Positions 39,715-51,377 of a stretch of 64,000 nucleotides of DNA are shown one piece after another. Every line of letters begins with the position of its first letter. Position 1 is the stretch's first letter. The DNA comes from Myxococcales bacterium 68-20. GTDB lineage: Bacteria; Myxococcota_A; Polyangia; Polyangiales; Polyangiaceae. The translations under genes and the position numbers were made by a program. The notes under the pieces are model-generated. The model was not told where the DNA came from. It saw only the letters and a list, made by a program, of their open reading frames with translations, and did not search any database. Location: NCBI GenBank assembly GCA_001899635.1, contig MKVQ01000002.1, positions 64,198 to 128,197 on the forward strand. Reading direction: 5' to 3'.

Positions 39715-39981
39715 CTATTCGGCGGCGCTGACGGCGGCTTCGGCCGTCGCGCTCGAACCGAGCTTCTTCTGAACGAGCGCCATCGAGTTGTTGAGCGTCG
39801 TGACCTCCACGAGCTCGGCGTCCTCGATCTTCACCTGATACTTCCGCTCGATTGCGGCGACGATCTCGACGCCCATCATCGAGTCGATGCCGAGGTCCTT
39901 GAACGCGACGTCATCGGGGACATCGTCCTTCTCGGCGATCTCGGCGATCAACGCACGGAGCTCTTCTTTCAGATTCGTCAT
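39715..39981 (-). CDS. acyl carrier protein (second of the FAAL operon)
   Basis: This 88-residue carrier protein has the phosphopantetheine site GIDSMMGVEI with Ser34. Helix 2 and the ERKYQVKIEDAEL segment match ACPs used by acyl-AMP ligases and polyketide systems. The ATG at 39981 follows GGGAGAGCG; an upstream in-frame Met would overlap the neighbouring ACP. It lies 10 bp after the other ACP and is the last gene of the FAAL-ACP-ACP unit. Having two different ACPs suggests one is loaded by the ligase and the other serves elongation or transfer; that is inference. Confidence 0.9.
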   Translation of the reverse strand: MTNLKEELRALIAEIAEKDDVPDDVAFKDLGIDSMMGVEIVAAIERKYQVKIEDAELVEVTTLNNSMALVQKKLGSSATAEAAVSAAE

Positions 39982-39991
39982 CGCTCTCCCT

Positions 39992-40246
39992 CTACGAAGT
40001 AACGCTCTGCCGTGATTCGACGGCATTGAGCAAGTCTTTGACGGTCACGATGCCCGCGAGCGACTCGTCGGGGATCTGGATCCGGAGCTCTCGCTCGAGC
40101 GAGCCGATGATCTCCAGCATGCCCAGGGAATCGATGCCGAGCTCCGCGATCGTCGACGTCTCGGCGACCGCGTTGAAGTCCTTCTCGGCGACCTCGGTGG
40201 CCGTCGCACGAAAGGCATCCAAAAGCTCGGTTCTGTTGCGCGCCAT
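39992..40246 (-). CDS. acyl carrier protein (first of the FAAL operon)
   Basis: The 84-residue carrier protein has GIDSLGMLEI with the phosphopantetheine Ser40. It sits 42 bp after the fatty acyl-AMP ligase, the usual position for the carrier that receives the activated acyl group. It differs clearly from the following ACP in helices 1 and 3, so the pair is not a recent duplication. Confidence 0.9.
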   Translation of the reverse strand: MARNRTELLDAFRATATEVAEKDFNAVAETSTIAELGIDSLGMLEIIGSLERELRIQIPDESLAGIVTVKDLLNAVESRQSVTS

Positions 40247-40288
40247 ATCGAATTGACCTCGATTACGAGCCTTCCGCCGCGAAGCGAG

Positions 40289-42040
40289 CTACGCGCTCGC
40301 CCCTGCGTCGTCGGGCTTTCCGTCCTTGCCTTGCACGGACCGTGCGCGGCTGAGTGTGCCGTCCAGATACAGCTGGCGGGTCTTCCGTCGCTGGGGTTTT
40401 CCGCTCGACGTCCGCGGCAACGTCCCCTGCGGAACGATCACCACGTCGTGGGTCGCCAGCGAGAAGCTGGCGAGGATCGCCTGCGAGATCGCTTGCTTGA
40501 GCGCCTCGGCGTCCGACTGGAACGCCTCGGCGGCGATGACGAGCTGCTCCTCGCCGTCGACGACCGTCCCGAAGGCCACCACGTTGCCGCGGCGCACACT
40601 GGGAAGCTCGCTCACTACCCACTCGAGGTCGTTCGGGTAGAAGTTGCGCCCCCGGACGATGATCATGTCCTTGAGGCGACCGCAGATGAAGACCTCGCCG
40701 TCGACCGTGTAGCCGAGGTCACCCGTGTAGAGCCACGTCTCGCCGTCAGGCCCCGCCTTGAAGGCCTCGGCCGTCAGCTCCGGCTCCTGGTAGTACCCGG
40801 CCGAGACGCTCGGTCCACGCGTGATGATGTGACCGACCTGGCGATCTCCGAGGCGGTTGCCGGCTTCGTCCACGATGGCCACGTCATGCTCCGGGAACGG
40901 GCGCCCGCAATTCACGAGCTCCTGCGCCCCGTCGTCTTCGATGCTCGCCGCCGGCTTCGCGTCGCCGCCCTCGAGGCTCTTCTTCTCGATCACGTCCGTG
41001 CGCACGCCGGTCGAGAGCGGGACGAACGTGATCGCAAGCGTGGCCTCGGCCATGCCGTACGACGGCAGGAACGCCTTCGGGTCGAACTTCGCAGGCGCGA
41101 GCTTGGCCGCGAAATCCCGGAGCGTCTTCGCCTGGATCGGCTCGGCTCCGCAGCCGGCCCGGCGCAGGCTCGACAGGTCGAGGTCGGCGACGTCCTTGTC
41201 CTTCAGGCGCTTGGCGACGAGCGCGTATGCGAAGTTCGGCGCGTACGTGATCGTCCCGCGGTGCTGATGGATCTTGTCGAGCCACACGCGCGGGTTGCGA
41301 ACGAAGCTCGCCGTCGGGAGGAAGACGACGGGGATGTCCGTGAAGATCGTACCGACGACGAAGCCGATGAGGCCCATGTCGTGGAAGAGCGGAAGCCACG
41401 TGACGCCCTTGTCGAAGGAGGAGTCCTTCTCGAGGCCGTGGATCATGAAGCTCTCGCTGTTCCAGGCGAGGTTCCGGTGCGAGACCATCACGCCCTTCGG
41501 CCGCGAGGTGCTGCCGGACGTGAACTGGAGGAACGCGAGGTCCGTCGGATCGATCCGGACGTCGACCTTGCCGTGGTCTTCCTTCCCGAGCTCGTCGACG
41601 GTCACCACGCAGCGGAGCTGCGGGGCACGCGGCACGATCGGATCGACGAACTGCCGTGTGGAGGTGGTCGTGAGGAGCAGCTTCGCGCCCGACGCGTTCG
41701 CGATGTGCGCGACCGTGTCGTGGTAGCTCTCGATGTTCTTGAACGAGAGCTGCGGCGAGATCGGCACGGGGACGATGCCCCCCATGACCGCGCCGAGGAA
41801 CGAGAGGACGAACTCGTCCGGATCGGGCACTGCGATCGCGAGACGGTCGCCCTTCACGAGGCCGCGGGCGTGGAAGTCCGCCGCGCGACGCTCGGCCTCG
41901 ATACCGAGCTCGCGGAACGAGCAGAATCGCTCGGTTCCGTCGGGACGGACGAAGACGAAGCCGCGCTGGTCGCGGTCCGCGAGCTGGCGGAGCGCCTCGC
42001 TCAGGGTCGGGGGAACGTGCCTCGGATCGAGCCCGCTCAT
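40289..42040 (-). CDS. fatty acyl-AMP ligase (FAAL)
   Basis: The 583-residue member of the ANL adenylating superfamily has the ATP loop FTSGSTSRPKGV, the aromatic motif PSYGMAEATL, the TGDLGY motif and the hinge GRLKDMIIVRGRNFYPNDLE. These forms are closer to FAALs (FadD32-like), which make acyl-adenylates and pass them to an ACP, than to CoA ligases. The two following ACP genes support this. It begins a minus-strand operon and diverges from the ketosynthase gene across a 259-bp region with a perfect dyad. Confidence 0.88.
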   Translation of the reverse strand: MSGLDPRHVPPTLSEALRQLADRDQRGFVFVRPDGTERFCSFRELGIEAERRAADFHARGLVKGDRLAIAVPDPDEFVLSFLGAVMGGIVPVPISPQLSFKNIESYHDTVAHIANASGAKLLLTTTSTRQFVDPIVPRAPQLRCVVTVDELGKEDHGKVDVRIDPTDLAFLQFTSGSTSRPKGVMVSHRNLAWNSESFMIHGLEKDSSFDKGVTWLPLFHDMGLIGFVVGTIFTDIPVVFLPTASFVRNPRVWLDKIHQHRGTITYAPNFAYALVAKRLKDKDVADLDLSSLRRAGCGAEPIQAKTLRDFAAKLAPAKFDPKAFLPSYGMAEATLAITFVPLSTGVRTDVIEKKSLEGGDAKPAASIEDDGAQELVNCGRPFPEHDVAIVDEAGNRLGDRQVGHIITRGPSVSAGYYQEPELTAEAFKAGPDGETWLYTGDLGYTVDGEVFICGRLKDMIIVRGRNFYPNDLEWVVSELPSVRRGNVVAFGTVVDGEEQLVIAAEAFQSDAEALKQAISQAILASFSLATHDVVIVPQGTLPRTSSGKPQRRKTRQLYLDGTLSRARSVQGKDGKPDDAGASA

Positions 42041-42134
42041 CGGAGGCCTCGCGGGTCGAATGCCACGGGATACGTCATGGGCGCGCGCGTCTTACTGCGG
42101 CGTTCCACGTCGCGCAAGGCGTCGAGAGCTGATC

Positions 42135-42164
42135 ACGCGTTGCGTAATTCGTGGCGCAACGCGT
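42135..42164. promoter_or_regulatory. 10+10-bp dyad, candidate operator between FAAL and ketosynthase genes
   Basis: ACGCGTTGCG (42135-42144) and CGCAACGCGT (42155-42164) are exact inverted copies with a 10-bp spacer (centre-to-centre about two helical turns). The site lies in the divergent control region, about 95 bp before the FAAL start and 136 bp before the ketosynthase start. This looks like a homodimeric repressor site. No regulator gene is adjacent. Confidence 0.55.
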
Positions 42165-42299
42165 ACCGTTCTACGCGGCCTCAAAGTGGTTCAACCATGC
42201 GATGAATCACGCAAAATCCCGAAATCGCATCCGCCTCTCAGCTCGTTGCTCCGGCGAAGCGACGCGGGGTATAAGCACCCCCAGCAGGGAGCTCATCGC

Positions 42300-43535
42300 G
42301 TGCGTGTCTTCATCACCGGGGTTGGCGTCATCAGCTCGATTGGGCTGGGGAAGGATGCCTTCTGGAAGGCCCTTGCGGAGGGAAAGAGCGGCATCTCGCC
42401 CGTCGAGGCCTTCGACACATCGAACCTCGGGCGCTCGAACGCCGGCGAGGTGAAGGCGTTCCATCCGCGCGACCATCTATCCGCGGCCGAGGTCCGCCGG
42501 ATGGGTCGTTGCTCGCAGATGGCGCTCGCCGCCGCGCGGATGGCGATCACCGACGCGGCGCTGCCGGAGGGTGCGCTCAGCGGGCCGCGCGCGTCGGTCG
42601 TGCTCGGCACCACGATGGGTGAGGCCGGCGTGCTCGAGGACCTCGATCATGCGTGGATCGCGAAGGGCCTGCCGGGGGTGCGCCGCGCGTGGATCCCGAA
42701 GTACGGCTCGACGCTCCTCCCCATTCATGTCGCGCGCGCCATCGGCGCCGAGGGATCGGTGCTCACCCTCCCCGCCGCGTGCGCCGCCGGCAACTACGCC
42801 ATCGGGCTCGCGTGCGATCTGATCCGCGCCGGCAAGGCCGACGTGATCGTCACCGGCGCTGCCGAGATGCTCCAGGAGCTCCAGTACTCCGGCTTCGTCC
42901 GCCTCGCCGCGATGGCGCCGACGAAGTGCCAGCCCTTCGATCTGAACCGCCAGGGTCTCATCCTCGGTGAGGGCGCAGGCATCCTCGTCGTCGAGTCCGA
43001 AGCTCACGCGGTCCGCCGCAACGCACGCGTCCTCGCGGAGGTCGGCGGTCACGGCATGACCTGCGACGCCTATCACATCACCCGCCCGCACCCCGAGGCG
43101 GCCGGCAGCATCGGCGCGATGCGCCAGGCGATCGAGCGCTCCGGCCTCCAGCCCGACGCGGTCGACTTCGTCAACGCGCATGGAACCGGGACGAAGCACA
43201 ACGACGCCGCCGAGTCGAAGGTGATGCGCGACGTCTTCGGCGATCGCAAGGTCCCGATCTCGAGCATGAAGAGCATGCTCGGTCACTGCATGGGCGCCGC
43301 GAGCGCGCTCGAGGCGATCGGGTGCCTGATGACGCTCGAGACGGGGATCTACCCGCCGACGATCGGCTACGAGACGCCCGATCCCGAGTGCGACGTCGAC
43401 GTCGTCGCGAACGAGGCGCGCAAGGGCAAGGCGGACATCGTGCTCAACAACTCGCTGGCTTTCGGTGGCTACAACTCGGTCACCTGCCTCGCCCGCCCCG
43501 GCAAGCTGCCGGCCCCGAAGGAGACGACAGCGTGA
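42300..43535 (+). CDS. beta-ketoacyl-ACP synthase (KS)
   Basis: This 411-residue FabF-type condensing enzyme has the full Cys-His-His triad: Cys161 in LPAACAAGNYAIG, His294 in NAHGTGTKHND and His329 in MLGHCMGAAS. It should carry out decarboxylative Claisen condensation of acyl- and malonyl-ACP. The start is GTG at 42300, nine bases after AGGGAG. It overlaps the following KS-like gene by 4 bp (GTGA), the arrangement of KS-alpha/chain-length-factor pairs in type II polyketide and aryl-polyene systems. Confidence 0.92.
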   Translation: MRVFITGVGVISSIGLGKDAFWKALAEGKSGISPVEAFDTSNLGRSNAGEVKAFHPRDHLSAAEVRRMGRCSQMALAAARMAITDAALPEGALSGPRASVVLGTTMGEAGVLEDLDHAWIAKGLPGVRRAWIPKYGSTLLPIHVARAIGAEGSVLTLPAACAAGNYAIGLACDLIRAGKADVIVTGAAEMLQELQYSGFVRLAAMAPTKCQPFDLNRQGLILGEGAGILVVESEAHAVRRNARVLAEVGGHGMTCDAYHITRPHPEAAGSIGAMRQAIERSGLQPDAVDFVNAHGTGTKHNDAAESKVMRDVFGDRKVPISSMKSMLGHCMGAASALEAIGCLMTLETGIYPPTIGYETPDPECDVDVVANEARKGKADIVLNNSLAFGGYNSVTCLARPGKLPAPKETTA

Positions 43536-44701
43536 AGCCCCGCGCGATCACTGGCCTCGGCATCACGAGCGCGCTCGGCACCGGATCGACGGAGACGCTC
43601 GCCGCGCTGGCGGCCCCGTCTTCGCCCGCCACTGCCACTGCGCGCACGCCGATCGCGAGCTTCGACGCCTCCTCTTACGAGGACCCGCCGATCGTCGAGG
43701 TGCCCGGCTTCGACCCGACGAAGTACCTCGGCGACAAGGGCCTCCGCACGCTCGATCGGCTGACGAAGCTCCTGGTCGTCGCGGCCCGCCTCTCGCTCCA
43801 CGACGCCGGCCTGAAGAAGGACGGCCAGTGGGCGGCGCTCGCGCCCGAGCGCGTCGGCGTGTGCTGCTCGAACGCGTACGGCAGCCTCGAGGCGATCACG
43901 GAGCTCGATCGCGTCGCCGTCCTCGAGGACGCGCGCTACATCAACCCGGCGAAGTTCCCGAACACGGTCTCGAACAGCGCGAGCGGCTACGTCAGCATCT
44001 GGGAAGATCTGCGGGCGCTCAACGTCAGCGTGTCGGACGGCAACTGCGGTGCGCTCGACGCGATCGCGTGCGCCGACATCTTCCTCGAGACCGGCCGCGC
44101 GGAGGCGATCCTCACCGGCGGCGGCGAGGCGATGAGCGAGGCGCTCTTCCTCGCGTTCGACAAGCTCCGGGTGCTCGGCACGAACGGCACCGGCGCGCGC
44201 ATCGGCGAGGGCGCAGCGTTCCTCGTCCTCGAGCCGCTAGAGCTAGCCAAGGCGCGAGGCGCGAAGGTGCTCGCGACGATCACGGGCTACGGCACGTCGT
44301 TCATCGCTCCGAAGGACGACGTCACGCTGCTCTTCTCCTCGAGCGAGGCGCTCGAGCGCGCGATCAAGAACGCGCTCGACGACGCCGGCATCACGGCGAG
44401 CGACGTCGACCTCGTCGTGTCCGGCGTCTCGGGGATCGCGCGCTTCGACGACGAGGAGCGCACGGCCATCGGCAAGGTCCTCGGCTCCTCCGTGCCGGTC
44501 ACCGCCCCGAAGCAGGTCTTCGGCGAGACGCTGGGCGCCGGCGGCGCCCTCGGGATGGCGGCTGCCCTCGCCTGCCTCGACGGGTCGGCGCCCGCGTGCC
44601 TCGTCTCCGGGAGCGCCCCCGCGAAGGTCGATACCGTGCTGGTCACATCGGTCGGCTATTACGGCAACGCATCCGCCGTCGTCGTGACGCGCGGGTCGTG
44701 A
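43532..44701 (+). CDS. KS-like chain-length-factor-type partner lacking both catalytic His
   Basis: The 389-residue thiolase-fold protein is related to KAS II. A Cys is retained in SDGNCGALD (Cys172), but the two His motifs are gone: the first region reads GVSGIARFDDEE and the second GETLGAGG (Glu332 where His is expected). It cannot act as a normal KS. By analogy with chain length factors it would dimerise with the preceding KS and shape the acyl pocket. The GTG start overlaps the KS stop, so stoichiometric translation is likely. Confidence 0.85.
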   Translation: MKPRAITGLGITSALGTGSTETLAALAAPSSPATATARTPIASFDASSYEDPPIVEVPGFDPTKYLGDKGLRTLDRLTKLLVVAARLSLHDAGLKKDGQWAALAPERVGVCCSNAYGSLEAITELDRVAVLEDARYINPAKFPNTVSNSASGYVSIWEDLRALNVSVSDGNCGALDAIACADIFLETGRAEAILTGGGEAMSEALFLAFDKLRVLGTNGTGARIGEGAAFLVLEPLELAKARGAKVLATITGYGTSFIAPKDDVTLLFSSSEALERAIKNALDDAGITASDVDLVVSGVSGIARFDDEERTAIGKVLGSSVPVTAPKQVFGETLGAGGALGMAAALACLDGSAPACLVSGSAPAKVDTVLVTSVGYYGNASAVVVTRGS

Positions 44702-44718
44702 ACGGAGGGAGGGGGGCT

Positions 44719-45441
44719 TTGAAGACGACGGTTCGCATGCTCCTGATCGGCGCGTGCTGCGCAGGCGTGGCTTCGACGGCGGCGTGTTCCTCGAGCTCCA
44801 GCAGCCCGAGCCCCTCGCCGACCGACGTGGCAGACGCGGGCGTCCTCCCCGAGGAGGAGACACCGGACTCCGGCGCCGACGCGGCGCTTGCCGACGAAGA
44901 CAGCGGGCTCACCGGCAAGTGTGCCGACACCTTCGGCGACAAGCTCACCGAGGGCTTCGGTCGCATCGACGGGACCGTCTATGCGGTGCAGAAGCCGAGC
45001 GACACCCAGTGCACGATGCCGAACGACGATCACGTCGTCGTTCAGGTCCTCATGAGCGGGGCTGTCTATCGACTCGTCACGAACGTGCTCAGCAACGGCG
45101 CCGATCCGAACGTCCGCTTCGCCGTCGTACCGCACGCCCTCCCTGCCCCGGCGTTCGCCGAGGGATGGCACGCAGGCGCCGGGCTCGACTACCCGACGAC
45201 GCTGGGCGCTCACAACGACGACTTTACGCCGTTCCCGATGGACGAGCTCGTCTCGAAGGTCGCGGCCGAGCTGAGTGTCGGCGCCAAGGTCTCGCTCTAC
45301 GCGGAGAGCGGCAAGGGACGCCCCGAGAGCGCGCACAAGATCCATCGGACGTCGGCCGCAAATCAGGACGGCGCGATTGTCGTAGATCCGACAGGGGCGC
45401 CGAAGTTCCTTCTCTTCCACTTCGACGGACAGGCGTTCTGA
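44719..45441 (+). CDS. lipoprotein encoded within the KS/AOS operon
   Basis: The 240-residue product has a signal sequence with a lipobox near residue 23 (TAAC), then a Ser/Pro/Asp linker typical of outer-membrane lipoproteins in this window. A globular domain of about 180 residues follows (DGTVYAVQKPSDTQC, DDHVVVQVLMSG, FAVVPHALPAPAFAEGWHAG). I do not recognise the domain. The TTG at 44719 is chosen because GGAGGGAGG lies just upstream; a GTG overlapping the previous stop is the alternative. Its position suggests a role in handling the lipid product, but this is only positional. Confidence 0.65.
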   Translation: MKTTVRMLLIGACCAGVASTAACSSSSSSPSPSPTDVADAGVLPEEETPDSGADAALADEDSGLTGKCADTFGDKLTEGFGRIDGTVYAVQKPSDTQCTMPNDDHVVVQVLMSGAVYRLVTNVLSNGADPNVRFAVVPHALPAPAFAEGWHAGAGLDYPTTLGAHNDDFTPFPMDELVSKVAAELSVGAKVSLYAESGKGRPESAHKIHRTSAANQDGAIVVDPTGAPKFLLFHFDGQAF

Positions 45442-45452
45442 CGTCGGATCGA

Positions 45453-45467
45453 CACGGTGCGACCGTG
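45453..45467 (+). terminator. small hairpin after the lipoprotein gene
   Basis: CACGGT and ACCGTG flank a 3-nt loop GCG, 12 bp after the stop at 45441. The stem is short, so it may only attenuate transcription before the alpha-oxoamine synthase gene. Confidence 0.25.
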
Positions 45468-45654
45468 CGACCACGACCGTTCACCGCCGACGCGCGAAGC
45501 CGACTTCGCAACGACGCTCCACTCGCGTGGCGCGTAACGTTTGGCGCGGAGTGCGTAGCGCGTGAGCTCGCCCTCGACTTCCTGCAGTCGAGGGCTCGAT
45601 CGACATCGCTCTCCGCTGGAAGCGCGAGGGCTGCTGTGCAAAAAGGGCGTGGTC

Positions 45655-46890
45655 ATGAGCTGGATCGACGACAAGGCCCGTACCGAGCTCGCCCGCGTCC
45701 GTGAGGCGAAGGAAAAGCAGGTCTACCCCTACTTCCGAGAGTTCGAGGCCGGTGGTCTCCACACCAGCATCGGCGGCAAGCCGATCATCAACTTCAGCTC
45801 GAACGACTACCTCGGCCTCACGAATCACCCGCGCGTGAAGGAGGCCTCGAAGAAGGCGATCGACAAGTACGCGTGCGGCCTCTCGAGCTCGCGCCCGCAG
45901 GCGACGACGTCCGAGCACGTGGAGCTCGAGAAGCGCCTCGCGAAGTGGTTCGGCTTCGAGACCTGCCTCACGTTCACGACCGGCTACCAGGCCATGCTCG
46001 GGACGATCGCGGCGCTCGCCGACAAGGACACGACGCTCATCCTCGACAGCTACAGCCACGCCTGCATCCTCGACGGCACGTTCCTCGCGGCCGGCGTGCC
46101 CGGGCGCGCGCCCGAGGTCCGGTTCTTCAACCACAACTCGGCGAAGAGCCTCGAGCGCATCCTCAAGACGCGCGAGCGGAAGAACGCGCTCGTCCTCGTC
46201 GAAGGCGTCTACTCGCTCGACGGCGACAAGGCGCACCTCGCCGAGTTCGTCGAGATCTGCGACCGCTACGACGCCGTCCTCGTCGTCGACGACGCGCACG
46301 GTACGGGCACGCTCGGCGAGCGCGGCACCGGCATCCTGGAGGAGACCGGCCTTCGCGACCGCGTCCCGGTCGTCGTCTCGACCTTCTCCAAGACGTTCGG
46401 CGGCATCGGCGGCATCCTCCTCGGCAAGAGCGAGGTCGTCGAACTCATCAAGCACAACGCGCGGAGCTTCCTCTTCAGCGCGTCCCTTCCCGTCCCCGTC
46501 GTCGCCGCGGCCTCGACGATCCTCGACATGCTCGAGGAGGACGGGCCGAAGATGGTGCGCGAGCTCCACCAGAAGGCGGACTACTTCCGCGGCAAGCTGA
46601 ACGAGATCGGGTTCGAGCTCGGCACGAGCAACACGCACATCATGCCGGTCATGTGCCGCGAGGAGCGCAAGACGCTCTTCATGCACGTCGCGCTACTCGA
46701 GTGCGGAGTCCTCATGGTCCCGCTCACCTACCCGTCCGTGAAGCACGGCGAGGAGCGTCTCCGCGTGAACATCACGCGCGGCCATTCCCAGGAAGACATG
46801 GATACGGCGCTCGAGCACCTCAAGACGTACGGCGAGGCCTTCTTCGTCCTCTCGGGCGACGAGATCGGCCCGATGGAAGCCGACGCCTGA
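45655..46890 (+). CDS. alpha-oxoamine synthase (serine palmitoyltransferase/KBL/BioF family)
   Basis: This 411-residue PLP enzyme condenses an acyl thioester with an amino acid and releases CO2, giving an amino ketone. Family signatures are INFSSNDYLGL, TTGYQAMLG, DSYSHACILDG, EGVYSLDGD, VVDDAHGTGTLG and the PLP lysine Lys246 in STFSKTFGGIGG. The TFSKT form and the HNSAKSLERIL segment are nearer to serine palmitoyltransferase-like enzymes than to glycine acetyltransferase or BioF. With carrier proteins on both sides, the acyl donor is probably acyl-ACP. AAAAGGG precedes the ATG. The amino acid used cannot be read from the sequence. Confidence 0.88.
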   Translation: MSWIDDKARTELARVREAKEKQVYPYFREFEAGGLHTSIGGKPIINFSSNDYLGLTNHPRVKEASKKAIDKYACGLSSSRPQATTSEHVELEKRLAKWFGFETCLTFTTGYQAMLGTIAALADKDTTLILDSYSHACILDGTFLAAGVPGRAPEVRFFNHNSAKSLERILKTRERKNALVLVEGVYSLDGDKAHLAEFVEICDRYDAVLVVDDAHGTGTLGERGTGILEETGLRDRVPVVVSTFSKTFGGIGGILLGKSEVVELIKHNARSFLFSASLPVPVVAAASTILDMLEEDGPKMVRELHQKADYFRGKLNEIGFELGTSNTHIMPVMCREERKTLFMHVALLECGVLMVPLTYPSVKHGEERLRVNITRGHSQEDMDTALEHLKTYGEAFFVLSGDEIGPMEADA

Positions 46891-46904
46891 TCCCGTCTTT
46901 CGTG

Positions 46905-46924
46905 AGCGCGCGGTAGCGCGCGCT
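46905..46924. terminator. GC hairpin between convergent AOS and ACP genes
   Basis: AGCGCGC (46905-46911) and GCGCGCT (46918-46924) pair with a short loop, between two convergent genes. A further self-complementary GGCGCGCGCGCC follows at about 46933. Bidirectional termination is likely. Confidence 0.45.
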
Positions 46925-46957
46925 TGGCCTCAGGCGCGCGCGCCGATTTTGGCAGCC

Positions 46958-47215
46958 TCAGGCGGGGGTGTTGGCTTCCTGGAGCTTCACGACGGCGCGG
47001 ACGATGTCCTCGACCGTCGAAATGCTGCTGAGCACCTCGTTCGGGACGGTGACCGAGAAGCGATCCTCGACGTCGGCGACGAGCTCCATCACGCCGAGGC
47101 TGTCGAGCCCGAGATCGTTCTGGATGTGATCGTTGGGGCGGATCGTGCGGTCGCCGTCGACATGCTTCTGGAGGATCTCAGTCGTGATCTTGAGGGTCTC
47201 GTCGTACGTCGCCAT
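46958..47215 (-). CDS. acyl carrier protein (third)
   Basis: The 85-residue carrier has GLDSLGVMEL with phosphopantetheine Ser39 and the typical four-helix pattern. It is convergent with the alpha-oxoamine synthase gene 68 bp away. Serine palmitoyltransferase-associated ACPs are known beside spt genes in other bacteria. The ATG at 47215 is preferred over a further upstream Met inside Arg-rich sequence. It lies 66 bp downstream of thiE on the same strand and might share its transcript. Confidence 0.9.
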   Translation of the reverse strand: MATYDETLKITTEILQKHVDGDRTIRPNDHIQNDLGLDSLGVMELVADVEDRFSVTVPNEVLSSISTVEDIVRAVVKLQEANTPA

Positions 47216-47281: not shown

Positions 47282-48025
47282 TCAGCCTCGCGTCGGGCGC
47301 TCGATCCGGCCGCGGAACGGGGCGTCGAGAGCTCGGGCCATCGCGGCCGGATCATCCGCATCGAGGAGCGCGCGAATCACCGCGACGCCATGCGCCCCGG
47401 CCGCGGCGCACGCCGCGACGCGTGAAGCCTCCACACCGCCGAGCGCGAGCACGACGAGCTCACGCGAGGGCGAGGGCGAGGGCGAGAGCGAGAGCGAGAG
47501 CGAGCGCGCGGCGGTGAGCGCGTCCACGCCGCGCGGCGGTCCCTTGCCGGGCGTCTCGAAGATCGGGCTCACCAGAACGCTCGTCGCACCGGCGTCCTTC
47601 GCGAGTGCGACCGCATCGTCCGTGTGCGCCGGGGTCGAAATCCACGACGCTGCGCCGAGCTGAGTGCGCGCCTCCGCGATGTGCTCCGGAGCGCACGGCA
47701 CGTGCACCCCGTCAGCGCCGGTCTCGACGGCGACACGGAGCGCGGGCGTCCCCGGAGCGTTGACGAGGAGGAGCGCACCGACGCGCGCCGTCACGGCGCG
47801 AAGCGCCCGCGCCGTCCGCGCGAGGTCGACGAGCGACGCTGTCTTGTCGCGGAGCTGAACGCCGAGCGCGCCCGGGCCGAGCGCGTGCCCTGCCCTCTCG
47901 ATCACGTCCTCCGTTCGGGCGAGCGACCAGCGCGGATCGGTGACGAGGAAGACGGACGGCGCACGGCGCGCTTCGAGCGGCGTGCGCGTCGAGCGGTCGA
48001 CGTCGGACTCGCTTCGCTCGCTCAC
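47282..48025 (-). CDS. thiE: thiamine-phosphate synthase / TenI-type protein
   Basis: ThiE joins the thiazole and pyrimidine phosphates to thiamine phosphate. The 247-residue TIM barrel has VFLVTDP, GVQLRDK, GALLLVN, GADGVHVP, VLVSPIFETPGKG and LALGGV, the family order. Between the last two a low-complexity Ser-Leu/Ser-Pro stretch is inserted, encoded by a hexanucleotide repeat. The GTG at 48025 is the best start: it follows the preceding gene by 26 bp, and sequence further upstream overlaps that gene. It is grouped with thiG. The TenI (isomerase) alternative cannot be excluded. Confidence 0.85.
   Translation of the reverse strand: MSERSESDVDRSTRTPLEARRAPSVFLVTDPRWSLARTEDVIERAGHALGPGALGVQLRDKTASLVDLARTARALRAVTARVGALLLVNAPGTPALRVAVETGADGVHVPCAPEHIAEARTQLGAASWISTPAHTDDAVALAKDAGATSVLVSPIFETPGKGPPRGVDALTAARSLSLSLSPSPSPSRELVVLALGGVEASRVAACAAAGAHGVAVIRALLDADDPAAMARALDAPFRGRIERPTRG
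47464..47505 (-). repeat. in-frame hexanucleotide microsatellite in thiE
   Basis: Seven tandem hexamers GCGAGG x3, GCGAGA x3, GCGAGC run from 47464 to 47505. On the coding strand they encode alternating Ser-Leu and Ser-Pro dipeptides in a loop of the barrel. Changes in copy number would alter loop length without shifting the frame. Confidence 0.9.
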
Positions 48026-48050
48026 TAGACGGGCGGCGCCGCGGGTGAGG

Positions 48051-48344
48051 TCATTGCTCGGAGGCCGTCGCGCTCTTCGCAGGCGCCGTGGGCGCGCCCT
48101 GCTCGAGCTCCTCGCGGACCGCCGGCACGTGGCGATTCGACGGGTAGTGCTCGACGAGGTAGCGGAGCGTGTCCTTCGCAGCCTGCTCGTTGCCCTTCGC
48201 GCGGAAGTCCATCGCGAGGGCGTAGAGCGCGTCTCCGGCGGAGTCCTCCCGCCGCACGGCGGGGTCCGACGATCCGCCACCACACTGGAGCGGCGCGCCG
48301 AGATACGCCACCAGAAGGCCGGTGCCGACGAGCCGGGAGATCAC
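48051..48344 (-). CDS. small exported protein between thiG and thiE
   Basis: The 97-residue product has a short hydrophobic N-terminus with Cys near residue 21 (PLQC, a poor lipobox). A single TPR-like helix pair follows ([42 protein letters not shown]), resembling BamD/YbgF-type repeats, then an Ala/Ser-rich tail. The GTG start overlaps the thiG stop by 4 bp. It probably lies in the periplasm, so its place between thiamine genes looks incidental rather than functional. Confidence 0.65.
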
Positions 48345-49114
48345 TCGATGAGCCCCGCGTTCGGGCTCGACGCGTTTGCATAACGCGTCTTCTCCATGCG
48401 GCCGGCGATGCGGGCCATACGTCCCGCGCGGACGCCATCGCGCATCGCGGTCGCCATGAGCACGGGATCCTTCGCGTGGGCGATCGCCGTGTTCATGAGG
48501 ACGGCGTCGCAACCGAGCTCCATCGCAACGGCGGCGTCGCTCGCGGTGCCGACGCCGGCGTCGACGATCACGGGAACCTTCGCATGCTCGAGGATGATGG
48601 AGAGGTTGTGCGGATTGCGGATGCCGAGGCCGCTGCCGATCGGCGCAGCGAGCGGCATCACCGCGGCGCAGCCGATATCCTCGAGCTTGCGGCACACGAT
48701 GGGGTCGTCGATGCAGTACGGGAGGACGACGAAGCCCTCCTTCACCAGAATCTTCGCGGCTTCGAGGGTCTGCTCGTTGTCCGGATAGAGCGTCTTCGGA
48801 TCGCCGATGACCTCGAGCTTGACCATGCTCGCGATGCCGAGCTCGCGCGCGAGACGGAGCGTCCGCACCGCCTCGTCGGCCGTGTAGCAGCCCGCCGTGT
48901 TCGGCAGGAGCGTCCAGCTCTTCCGCTGGAGGAGCGCCATCAGCGAGCCGCTCGACTTGTCGTTGAGGTCGACGCGACGAAGCGCGACCGTGACGATCTC
49001 GGCGCCCGACGCGTCGAGCGCGCGCTCGGTCTCCTCGACGTTCTTGTACTTACCGGTGCCGACGATCAGGCGGCTCTGAAAGCGCTTGCCGGCGATGACG
49101 AGGGCGTCGTCCAT
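48341..49114 (-). CDS. thiG: thiazole synthase ThiG
   Basis: ThiG forms the thiazole phosphate of thiamine from deoxyxylulose phosphate, an imino acid and ThiS thiocarboxylate. The 257-residue TIM barrel has [10 protein letters not shown] near the Schiff-base region, [53 protein letters not shown] and LMNTAIA, all diagnostic. Length is normal. ThiS and ThiO/ThiH are not visible in the window. It follows the acyltransferase gene by 12 bp, and no TPP riboswitch fits in that gap. Confidence 0.95.
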
Positions 49115-49126
49115 GGTGAAGACGAA

Positions 49127-50047
49127 CTAGCCCGCCTGCCGCGTCGCCACAAGCGGCGGCGCCGATCGCGGCGCCCGCCATCGCCGATGCAGCCAGAGCC
49201 ACGACTGCGGTGAGCGACGGACGAATTCCTCGAGCGCCGCCGTCGCGCGTTTCGTGGTCGCGTCGACCCAGACGCGGGAACGCGTAACCCCGCCGCGCGA
49301 TGGCGCCGGGATCACGTCGAGCAGACGAACGCGGTGCTCCCCACCGTCGCGCTCCGCGGCCACGACGAGCACCGTCGCCTTCGCACGCCATGCGAGCATC
49401 GCGGGTGCACGATCGGCGAGCGCCGAGTCGCAGAGGAACGGCACCGCTACGCCGTGCGACGCGCGGTCGGGGACCTGATCGATCGGCATGACGACGACGT
49501 CGCCGGCGTGGAGCGCACGCCTCGCGGCGCCGAACGCGCCGACCGGCGAGAGCACGCGGACCCCGAGGTGCCGGCGGAGGCGCACGAGGAACGCGTCGAC
49601 GCCGCGCGCGTGCATCGCCTTGGCGACCACCGCGAGCCCCCGGCCCTGCCCCGAGAGATGCTGCGCCGCGGCCGCCGCCGCGAGCTCCCAGTTGCCGGTG
49701 TGGGAGGCGAACAAGACGACGGGCCCGCGCGCCATCGCCTCGCCGAGCGCCGTTACCGCCTCCGCGTCGATCGCGACGCGCGCAACCTCATCCGCACGAA
49801 CGGCCGGCCGCGCGCCCGCGAGCCAGAGCAGCTCGAAGACGCCGTGCCCCAGCGCGCGATACATCCTGGCAGCGGCCGACGCCGGATCGCGTACGCCGGA
49901 GCGCTCCATCGCCGACTCCACGAGCCGGCGCCGGATTCGGAGAATCGAGCCTACGAAGAAGCCGAGCGCGCCGCCGAGCGCTGCGAGCGCTGCACGGGGA
50001 AGCCGTGCGACCAGCGCCGCGAGGAGCGAGAGCGCGGCGTACGTCAT
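49127..50047 (-). CDS. LpxL/HtrB-type lauroyl acyltransferase
   Basis: The 306-residue membrane-associated enzyme belongs to the lipid A late-acyltransferase family. An N-terminal hydrophobic helix (about 5-35) is followed by the catalytic HTGNWE motif (His116, Glu121) and further blocks VVMPIDQVPD, VPFLCDSA and the terminal SWLWLHRRW. It transfers an acyl chain to lipid A precursors or another lipid on the inner leaflet. Length matches the family. It precedes thiG by 12 bp and may be in one transcription unit with it. Its proximity to the lipid-type locus at 39715-47215 is worth noting. Confidence 0.9.
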   Translation of the reverse strand: MTYAALSLLAALVARLPRAALAALGGALGFFVGSILRIRRRLVESAMERSGVRDPASAAARMYRALGHGVFELLWLAGARPAVRADEVARVAIDAEAVTALGEAMARGPVVLFASHTGNWELAAAAAAQHLSGQGRGLAVVAKAMHARGVDAFLVRLRRHLGVRVLSPVGAFGAARRALHAGDVVVMPIDQVPDRASHGVAVPFLCDSALADRAPAMLAWRAKATVLVVAAERDGGEHRVRLLDVIPAPSRGGVTRSRVWVDATTKRATAALEEFVRRSPQSWLWLHRRWRAPRSAPPLVATRQAG

Positions 50048-50083
50048 CGGCTCCGGAGAGTTCGCTGGGCGAGCGTGCCCGGA

Positions 50084-50368
50084 TCAGGACGCTGAGAAGC
50101 CGGCGGGCCGACGCGCCTGACCGCCTGCGCCCTCGACGGCCACGGCGAAGACGTCCGAGACGACGATCGCGACGGTCTGCTTGGCGCCCTTCGCGTAGAT
50201 CAGCTCGCCGTCGAACCGCACGGCCTCGAGCTTCTGGAACGACAGGCTCGCGCCGTCGTGCGCGACGTGCAGCGTCACGTTCGAGCCGTCGGGGAGGATG
50301 TACCCGTTCTCCTTGTCCAGCTTGGCCTGGGAGCTCTTGAGGACCGCCTCGATCTGTTCGCGCGTCAT
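50084..50368 (-). CDS. small conserved hypothetical protein
   Basis: The 94-residue soluble protein opens MTREQIEAVLKSSQAKLDKENGY and continues with alternating strands (NVTLHVAHDGASLSFQKLEAV, ELIYAKGAKQTVAIV), a compact alpha/beta fold I cannot name. The ATG at 50368 is chosen because the upstream frame is Pro/Gly-rich and lies over the divergent promoter of the ABC gene. It precedes the acyltransferase by 36 bp. Confidence 0.65.
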   Translation of the reverse strand: MTREQIEAVLKSSQAKLDKENGYILPDGSNVTLHVAHDGASLSFQKLEAVRFDGELIYAKGAKQTVAIVVSDVFAVAVEGAGGQARRPAGFSAS

Positions 50369-50459
50369 GGCCCCACGTTTAGCTTGCGCCGGCCCGCCGC
50401 GAAAGGGACATTTCGGAATGAGCCCGGCTCCGGCCGGGAGTAGGAGACCCGAGGAAGCG

Positions 50460-51377
50460 ATGCTGCCCAACGGCCCCAGATCGTCTGGGCGCACCCTCGA
50501 GCCCAGCAGCCACCGGGACGCTCAGAGCCCGCCCGCCCCGGCCGCACCACGCGGCGACGGCGAGCGCCCGCGCGGCAACGGAGACAGCGGGCGGCCTCCG
50601 CTCCCCGACGAGATCGTCGTCCTCAGGGACATCCGGAAGAAGTTCGGGGACCAGGAGATCCTGAAGGGCATCGACCTCGTCGCTCGCCGGCGGGAGACCA
50701 CCGTCATCATCGGCGGATCGGGCGCAGGCAAGACCACCCTCCTCCGGCTCATCGTCGCCCTCGAACGCGCGACGAGCGGTCACATCTTCGTCGACGGCGA
50801 AGACGTCACGAACCTCTCCGAGCGCGAGCTCAACCGCGTGCGGAAGAAGTTCGGGATGGTCTACCAATATGCCGCCCTCCTCGACTCGATCTCCGTCTTC
50901 GACAACGTCGCCTTCCCGCTCGTCGAGCACACGAAGCTCACGAAGAAGGAGATCGCCGAGCGCGTGATGGGCAAGCTCGAGATCCTCGGGCTCGATCCGA
51001 AGGTCGTCGCGCCGAAGTTCCCCTCCGAGCTCTCGGGCGGCATGAGAAAGCGCGTGGGCCTCGCGCGGGCGCTCATGCTCGAGCCGCCGATCCTGGTCTA
51101 CGACGAGCCCACGAGCGGTCTCGATCCGCTGACGAGCCGGCTCGTCGACGATCTGATCGAAGAGATGCGCCAGCGCTTCGGCGTCACCAGCATCGTCATC
51201 TCGCACGACATCGCGAGCTGTTTCCGGATCGCGCATCAGGCCGTGCTGCTCATCAAGGGCCGCATCGAGGCGAGCGGCCCACCCGACGAGCTCCTCGAAG
51301 GAGACAGCGACGTCGCACGCGAGTTCATCCGGAATTCGGCCGTCGACGTCGAGAGCATCGGACGCGTCACGCGCTGA
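50460..51377 (+). CDS. MlaF-like ABC transporter ATPase
   Basis: This 305-residue ATPase has Walker A GGSGAGKTT, signature LSGGMRKR and Walker B ILVYDEPTSGLDP followed by the H-loop SHD. The LSGGMRKRVGLARAL form and the YQYAALLDSISVFDNV segment are typical of MlaF/Ttg2A ATPases, which drive phospholipid or mammalian-cell-entry-type transport between the membranes. The first 45 residues are a disordered Pro/Arg/Gly extension. No MlaE permease or MCE protein is adjacent, so partners are elsewhere. GAGGAAGCG precedes the chosen ATG. Confidence 0.88.
   Translation: MLPNGPRSSGRTLEPSSHRDAQSPPAPAAPRGDGERPRGNGDSGRPPLPDEIVVLRDIRKKFGDQEILKGIDLVARRRETTVIIGGSGAGKTTLLRLIVALERATSGHIFVDGEDVTNLSERELNRVRKKFGMVYQYAALLDSISVFDNVAFPLVEHTKLTKKEIAERVMGKLEILGLDPKVVAPKFPSELSGGMRKRVGLARALMLEPPILVYDEPTSGLDPLTSRLVDDLIEEMRQRFGVTSIVISHDIASCFRIAHQAVLLIKGRIEASGPPDELLEGDSDVAREFIRNSAVDVESIGRVTR

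Follow-up and report, generated by a model that had tools for sequence, protein, structure and literature searches.

A gene cluster joining an alpha-oxoamine synthase to a ketosynthase pair, a possible substitute for serine palmitoyltransferase in Polyangiales

The window analyzed here is a stretch of 64,000 nucleotides from contig MKVQ01000002.1 (positions 64,198 to 128,197, forward strand) of Myxococcales bacterium 68-20, a member of the Polyangiaceae with a GC-rich genome of 11.9 Mb whose nearest named relatives carry the label Labilithrix. Between positions 39715 and 47215, it encompasses a cluster that encodes a pyridoxal phosphate (PLP)-dependent alpha-oxoamine synthase (AOS), a fatty acyl-AMP ligase (FAAL), three acyl carrier proteins (ACPs) and a beta-ketoacyl-ACP synthase (KS) together with a KS-like partner (KSb). 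We propose, with a probability of about 0.55, that this locus makes the sphingoid base for ceramide-type lipids of Polyangiales, replacing the canonical serine palmitoyltransferase (SPT). The proposal builds on the computed gene content, the conservation of the unit, the states of the active sites, a distribution complementary to that of SPT and the retention of the ceramide gene bCerS.

Gene content of the locus

The gene models, built from reading frame, GC content at third codon positions (GC3) and Pfam/NCBIfam matches, fall into two divergent groups. On the minus strand lie ACPb (39715..39981; PF00550, E 7.5e-14), ACPa (39992..40246; PF00550, E 7.4e-10) and the FAAL (40289..42040; PF00501/PF23024), a predicted fatty acyl-AMP ligase or acyl-ACP synthetase for which the NCBIfam 'fatty acyl-AMP ligase' model is the best one, at 502 bits, below the model cut-off of 600. 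On the plus strand, KS (42300..43535; PF00109/PF02801), with intact catalytic residues, and the chain-length-factor-like KSb (43532..44701; PF00109/PF02801, E 6.8e-16 and 1.3e-11), without them, share a 4-nt overlap of their reading frames and are followed by the AOS (45655..46890), the proposed sphingoid-base synthase, whose best solved relative is SPT 3a2b (245 bits). The AcpR-like ACPc (46958..47215, minus strand; PF00550, E 1e-11) is convergent with the AOS. All these genes had been named, at the same positions, in an initial annotation made from the nucleotide sequence alone, and frame, GC3, Pfam and NCBIfam bear it out. The only other content of the locus is a lipoprotein-like open reading frame (ORF) between KSb and AOS (44737..45441, plus strand), not listed in that annotation; its residues 1-218 have no match in Pfam or NCBIfam, and a homolog was found in one relative only (L062/L098).

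The KS/KSb pair

KS residues Cys161, His294, Lys324 and His329 are invariant wherever they could be read (45-48 of 49 loci). In KSb, the position of the catalytic Cys is occupied by Asn in 40 of 53 loci, by Pro in 9 and by other residues in 4, and the second His position is Glu in 53 of 54. An apparently active KS encoded together with a homologous partner that lacks the Cys and the other catalytic residues is, as judged from these positions, the pattern of a KS/chain-length factor (CLF) pair. Such heterodimers include ishigamide Iga11/12 (6kxd), the actinorhodin pair (1tqy) and 9s5h, which the pair of the cluster resembles, except that here an AOS is encoded alongside; 6kxd and 1tqy each combine an active KS with a KS lacking the Cys. 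The best PDB match of KS is 9s5h_B (389 bits), followed by the ishigamide KS 6kxd_A, and that of KSb is 9s5h_C, an entry for which no paper was found. The predicted model of KSb (pTM 0.85) has the KS fold; in the fold search, FabF and KS/CLF entries fall together within Z 44.8-48.0, which points to a KS fold and to no finer class, and 9s5h is not among the listed matches.

Identity of the AOS

The AOS residues Asn50, His135, Asp213, His215, Lys246 and Arg370 are invariant wherever read (78-80 of 80 loci), so that the Asn, His, Lys and Arg of the catalytic set of canonical SPT, as named for SPT in PMC9304779, are present. The same paper gives Lys281 as diagnostic of SulA, a cysteate acyl-ACP transferase of the SulA/CapA type that, like the enzyme proposed here, is an AOS using acyl-ACP (PMC9304779). 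The equivalent residue in the cluster AOS is Ala276, with Ala in 80 of 80 loci, in which respect it differs from SulA/CapA and agrees with the canonical SPTs of Sphingobacterium (3a2b) and Polyangiaceae, members of the same AOS superfamily with the same Asn/His/Lys/Arg set. The Ser of SPT 3a2b and KBL 7v58 is replaced in the cluster AOS by a Cys, within His-Ala-Cys, that is conserved in 79 of the 79 loci read.

By score, the AOS falls below the cut-offs of all three NCBIfam SPT models (321.5/640, 290.5/500 and 230.7/670 bits) as well as those of KBL (300.9/460) and bioF (328.9/426). The shortfall against SPT says little because three of the four SPT controls also fall short: two from Polyangiaceae (464-470) and one from Rubrobacter (444) fail the cut-off of 640, and that of Escherichia coli BL21 passes (599/500). 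Two trees were built, a fuller one of 39 rows that includes seventeen orthologs, and a smaller one to which ten Polyangiaceae SPTs were added and from which eight references and six of the seventeen orthologs were removed. In the fuller tree, the AOS and a paralog from contig C26 of the window genome form a clade (100/100) that a 97/95 split places with SPT and away from KBL, BioF and ALAS; the SPT references form a separate clade (97/96), joined in the smaller tree by the Polyangiaceae SPTs (99/96). Constraining the AOS and the Polyangiaceae SPTs together is rejected (AU p 6e-6). By these sequence comparisons, the AOS is neither a local offshoot of the SPT of its family nor a member of the SPT clade; another difference from canonical SPT is its tie to KS/KSb. 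The cut-offs and the fuller tree do not favor an ortholog of KBL, BioF or ALAS either. No PigH-named reference was found among the 60 of 554 plasmid records listed.

Conservation of the cluster

The initial annotation proposed conserved co-occurrence of these genes in related genomes as a check, and such co-occurrence is found: among the 108 genomes of the family, the AOS is present in 38 and KSb in 38, with both in the same genome in 37, and the genes do not scatter. We picked 18 ortholog regions out of the 38 AOS-containing family genomes; ACPb is divergent from KS-KSb-AOS in all 18, FAAL is found in 14, ACPa in 16, including each of the 14 with FAAL, and ACPc in 10.

In a broader scan of named genomes, within the stretch available for each, KS and KSb are both present in 50 of 80 loci, and ACPc in 13. 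Upstream gene content was scored in the 53 loci with at least 6.5 kb upstream of the AOS: 33 have both KS and KSb (17 with FAAL and ACPb, 14 with ACPb and no FAAL, 2 with the pair alone), 2 have KSb alone, 11 have ACPb alone and 7 have none, so that 11 of the 18 loci lacking both KS and KSb still have ACPb close to the AOS. After removal of a short AOS (L175), 79 loci remain, of which 7 have too little upstream sequence to be scored; KS/KSb is absent near the AOS in 18 of the other 72, although the pair may sit elsewhere in the genome, and KS/KSb is thus no constant neighbor of the AOS, a point on which the reading in the initial annotation is not borne out. Presence of KS, mapped on the AOS tree, requires five changes. 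In one locus (L139), KS and KSb are inverted and still near the AOS.

Two genomes congeneric with the 11.9 Mb window genome (G001 and G002; 4.2-4.8 Mb) retain KS-KSb-AOS and ACPb, with FAAL and ACPa not seen in their loci. Genes of a single family, which match FA_desaturase_2 (PF03405) in the members tested, lie between ACPa and ACPb in L069-L071 (L069 3674-4555), and another FA_desaturase_2 gene has this position in a second lineage (L165 5295-6143), which suggests that at these loci the ACP-bound chain could be modified. A serine O-acetyltransferase-like gene occurs near ACPb/AOS in L144 (7739-8632) and in 13 further loci of a KS-less clade; the label comes from L144 only, at 152.6 bits, under the model cut-off. 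A FemAB_like (PF04339) protein adjoins ACPb in L059 (15455-16600) and L060 (13990-15135), and lies on other contigs in other genomes of the genus. These FemAB_like proteins, found beside ACPb in G005 and G006, were considered as ceramide synthases and dropped, given that YghO has no PF04339 match and yields no hit in the FemAB_like regions of the two genomes. Downstream of the cluster in the window (47282-51377) are ThiE, ThiG, an LpxL-like acyltransferase, a small ORF and an MlaF-like ATPase, an arrangement syntenic in several relatives.

Distribution of the AOS, SPT and bCerS

SPT was searched with the Rubrobacter SPT that is encoded with homologs of bCerS and CerR, and bCerS with an alignment of YghO (E. 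coli) and the Rubrobacter gene. Within the family (limits: AOS E<=1e-130, SPT E<=1e-100, KSb E<=1e-38; up to 16 candidates per genome scored for SPT), SPT is present in 58 of the 108 genomes, the AOS in 38, both in 0 and neither in 12; six genomes with only a 43-50% AOS relative and an SPT fragment of G038 were not counted. In a phylum sample of 377 genomes (AOS E<=1e-90, SPT E<=1e-84; 4 candidates per genome scored for AOS and SPT, 5 for bCerS), there are 96 with SPT, 49 with the AOS, including 44-46% relatives from outside the order in G321 and G416, and again none with both. Within the order, SPT is found again in one further family (f6).

Among the sampled Polyangiales, bCerS is found in 45 of 47 AOS-containing genomes, in 20 of 20 with SPT and in 2 genomes with neither. 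In 16 of the 38 AOS-containing family genomes, a single gene matches SPT at 1e-50, and this gene is the AOS considered here in the 15 for which a location is given; nine of the 16 belong to the phylum sample, and seven of these nine hold bCerS. In G001 and G002, both of which hold bCerS, there are two AOS matches each, namely the cluster AOS and a BioF-like gene. At least 6 of 18 sampled SPT-containing family genomes have SPT within 1.3 kb of bCerS.

The initial annotation reported no ceramide genes, which holds within the window and not for the genome, where bCerS adjoins a CerR-like gene on contig 20 (G000:C20). A CerR-like gene lies 1.7 kb from bCerS in G001, and an epimerase-family gene adjoins bCerS in G002. 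These CerR-like proteins of the window genome and G001 share 76% identity with each other and 33-36% with the Rubrobacter CerR. A BioF-like AOS about 2.5 kb from bCerS (G000:C20) was considered as a hidden SPT and is not favored (BioF 367 versus 235 bits). In 1 of 80 loci (L174), bCerS is the divergent neighbor of the AOS, about 250 bp away. Eleven KS-less loci have an epimerase-family gene about 1.3 kb from the AOS, much as BL21 has an epimerase beside acp and spt, although the closer relative of this epimerase is the one in the C26 cluster (31-35%), not CerR. The context of L174 and of these epimerases helps a little to connect the AOS with ceramide synthesis.

The window genome contains two other AOS genes, both under the BioF and KBL cut-offs. 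The one on contig C26 (L077, G000:C26:1-12000), 45% identical to the cluster AOS, occurs with an epimerase, two short-chain dehydrogenases/reductases (SDRs), an ACP, an HMG-CoA-synthase-like protein, a KS and an acyltransferase, a gene content suggestive of a complete type II line with an AOS at its end. The third (L240, G000:C39, 6355-9258) is 38% identical to the Rubrobacter SPT, its nearest reference, and is flanked by ORFs that, judged from their first residues, resemble an SDR and a KS. On a plasmid of Streptomyces sp. NBC_00536 (L199), an AOS is annotated near a KS, a ketoacyl-ACP synthase III, an SDR, a MaoC, an AMP-binding protein and a carrier protein, possibly another AOS-terminated line of the fatty acid synthase (FAS) kind.

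Relationship to known systems

In the prodigiosin pathway, PigJ (KS+CLF) works with PigH (ACP-ACP-AOS), in which the AOS acts on an ACP-bound chain. The statement in the initial annotation that no cluster combining KS/CLF with an AOS had been described overlooks this pair, which shares with the present cluster the KS, the CLF-like KS, the ACPs and the AOS; the cluster differs in having separate genes and a FAAL for starter loading, and there are loci with the AOS where KS/KSb is not found nearby.

A close precedent is the tripartite AasR-AcpR-SPT module of Rhodobacteria (Caulobacter CC_1165/1163/1162), for which PMC9386255 reports that expression of AcpR and AasR with SPT yields compounds migrating like 3-oxo-sphinganine, with acyl-ACP rather than acyl-CoA as the acyl donor, and that Myxococcus, Stigmatella and Sorangium have AcpR-AasR operons in different genomic surroundings. 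In E. coli BL21, the module is ECD_02851/02853/02854, in the gene order yghO, FAAL, epimerase, ACP, spt. Both systems combine a FAAL-type acyl-ACP synthetase with a dedicated ACP and an AOS. The FAAL of the cluster is a homolog of AasR (34% over 551 aa with that of BL21(DE3)), the AOS is 35% identical to the BL21 SPT, and ACPc matches the BL21 AcpR (40% over 53 aa, E 4e-9), the sole significant AcpR match among the three ACPs; ACPc lies beside the AOS but occurs in only 13 of 80 loci, and the widely kept ACPb has no significant match to AcpR. The cluster is unlike the module in adding KS/KSb and two more ACPs, in having bCerS elsewhere in the genome and in the separate clade of its AOS. The combination of FAAL, ACP and AOS is therefore already known (PMC9386255), contrary to the suggestion of an undescribed pathway in the initial annotation, and KS/KSb is the addition.

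Our literature search, which left most subscription journals outside its reach, found no description of an AOS with KS/CLF in sphingolipid synthesis, and the words oxoamine, palmitoyltransferase and chain length factor do not occur in a FAAL review (PMC11837247) that was searched for them.

A possible pathway and its alternatives

In the pathway outlined here, we infer the substrates, the order of transfers, the chain length, the amino acid and the product. The FAAL would activate a free fatty acid and load it onto ACPa, and KS with the catalytically dead KSb would extend the chain with malonyl units, lengthening or shaping it; that the pair acts through chain elongation appears rather probable. 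There are no reduction genes, that is, no ketoreductase (KR) or dehydratase (DH), within the locus, and reduction, if any, would presumably be performed by housekeeping FAS enzymes. The chain would then be handed to ACPb (or ACPc); ACPb is the likely partner of the AOS because it is often kept where KS/KSb is gone. The AOS would condense the chain with an amino acid, for which serine is the likeliest choice and the default reading of the active-site residues, to give a 3-keto base with the release of CO2, and bCerS and a reductase encoded elsewhere would complete the (dihydro)ceramide. We think it probable that the AOS supplies the base to bCerS. A sphingoid-like product, suggested by the initial annotation, is now the best reading on evidence from outside the window, that is, the complementarity with SPT and the presence of bCerS. 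A more specific form, in which KS/CLF on private ACPs builds a non-ordinary chain (unreduced, unsaturated or of set length) that is released by an AOS not belonging to the SPT clade as a base for the ceramide enzymes, making the lipid a polyketide-sphingolipid hybrid in which most of the order has swapped the first step, is a tentative and rather doubtful extension.

Several observations weigh against a substitute for SPT. Unlike canonical SPT, the AOS does not fall within the SPT clade and is not preferred by the SPT model over bioF (321.5 versus 328.9 bits), whereas the four SPT controls score 65-266 bits higher with the SPT model than with bioF. Its deep placement differs between the two trees: in the smaller one, the AOS stands apart from the SPTs with BioF as a weak neighbor (75/68). 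The grouping with glycine C-acetyltransferase or BioF that would have refuted the reading of the initial annotation is absent from the fuller tree and is weakly suggested, for BioF, by the smaller one. KS/KSb or FAAL is frequently missing close to the AOS. The absence of SPT from any sampled genome with the AOS is less sure in the phylum than in the family because only 4-5 candidates per genome were scored there. Retention of bCerS is not specific because 172 of the 377 phylum genomes carry this gene, and in the phylum sample G016 and G020 have the AOS with no bCerS match. A CerR-like gene was found near bCerS in 2 of 8 regions read and none was called in the other six, and in the window genome the C26 or C39 AOS could supply bCerS. 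The estimate for our proposal was lowered from 0.60 to 0.55 because of this 2 of 8 and of BioF being the best-scoring model of the AOS.

The division between AOS and SPT genomes also calls for caution. In a SecA tree built from 89 genomes of the family (out of 94 with a SecA match), the split amounts to a single change; exclusivity thus counts as about one event, no p-value is usable and Fisher's exact p was discarded. Within the family, what is seen is a single clean swap and not a replicated correlation. Such a pattern would fit a lineage accident, in which there was a single loss of SPT, bCerS acts on some other base and the cluster has an unrelated role, as would the wide occurrence of bCerS in the phylum. 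We regard this as unlikely, given that bCerS persists in genomes of 3.3-4.8 Mb (G001, G002 and G128), that the AOS matches of G001 and G002 are limited to the cluster AOS and a BioF-like gene, and that bCerS adjoins the cluster AOS in L174.

Another amino acid might be used, with the AOS making a 1-deoxy, cysteate-derived or other base not derived from serine and KS/KSb setting chain length. AOS enzymes differ in the amino acid used, and both the conserved Cys in place of the Ser of SPT 3a2b and KBL 7v58 and the serine O-acetyltransferase-like gene of 14 loci could be read in this way; the universal Ala in place of the SulA-marking Lys281 (PMC9304779) speaks against it, and we consider such a variant quite unlikely. 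The locus could also produce a specialized amino-lipid or pyrrole unrelated to ceramide, through a single unreduced extension by KS/KSb and condensation with serine by the AOS to an amino-diketone that closes to a long-chain hydroxypyrrole, as in PigJ/PigH. With no KR or DH in the locus, the KS, the dead KS, the ACPs and the AOS correspond to PigJ/PigH, the starter being loaded by the FAAL, and KS does match a PigJ-named NCBIfam model, at 84 bits against a cut-off of 900. Such a product would, however, leave unexplained the tie to the absence of SPT and the retention of bCerS in 45 of 47 genomes, and sits poorly with the 18 of 72 loci where the AOS lacks KS/KSb nearby; we deem it very unlikely.

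Implications

SPT is the gene used to mark sphingolipid producers among bacteria, and a Black Sea study describes an Spt-like clade wider than the known SPTs (both in PMC11334938). If the cluster indeed provides the sphingoid base, surveys based on known SPTs could miss or misplace sphingolipid producers among Polyangiales. At least one exchange of the first committed step would have taken place, bringing in an enzyme coupled to a KS/CLF that builds chains, and cultured myxobacteria would allow direct tests of where bacterial sphingoid bases come from and how their chain length is controlled. The locus would then represent a new bacterial way to ceramide-type lipids, in which a substitute for SPT comes with its own parts for fatty acid loading and chain building.

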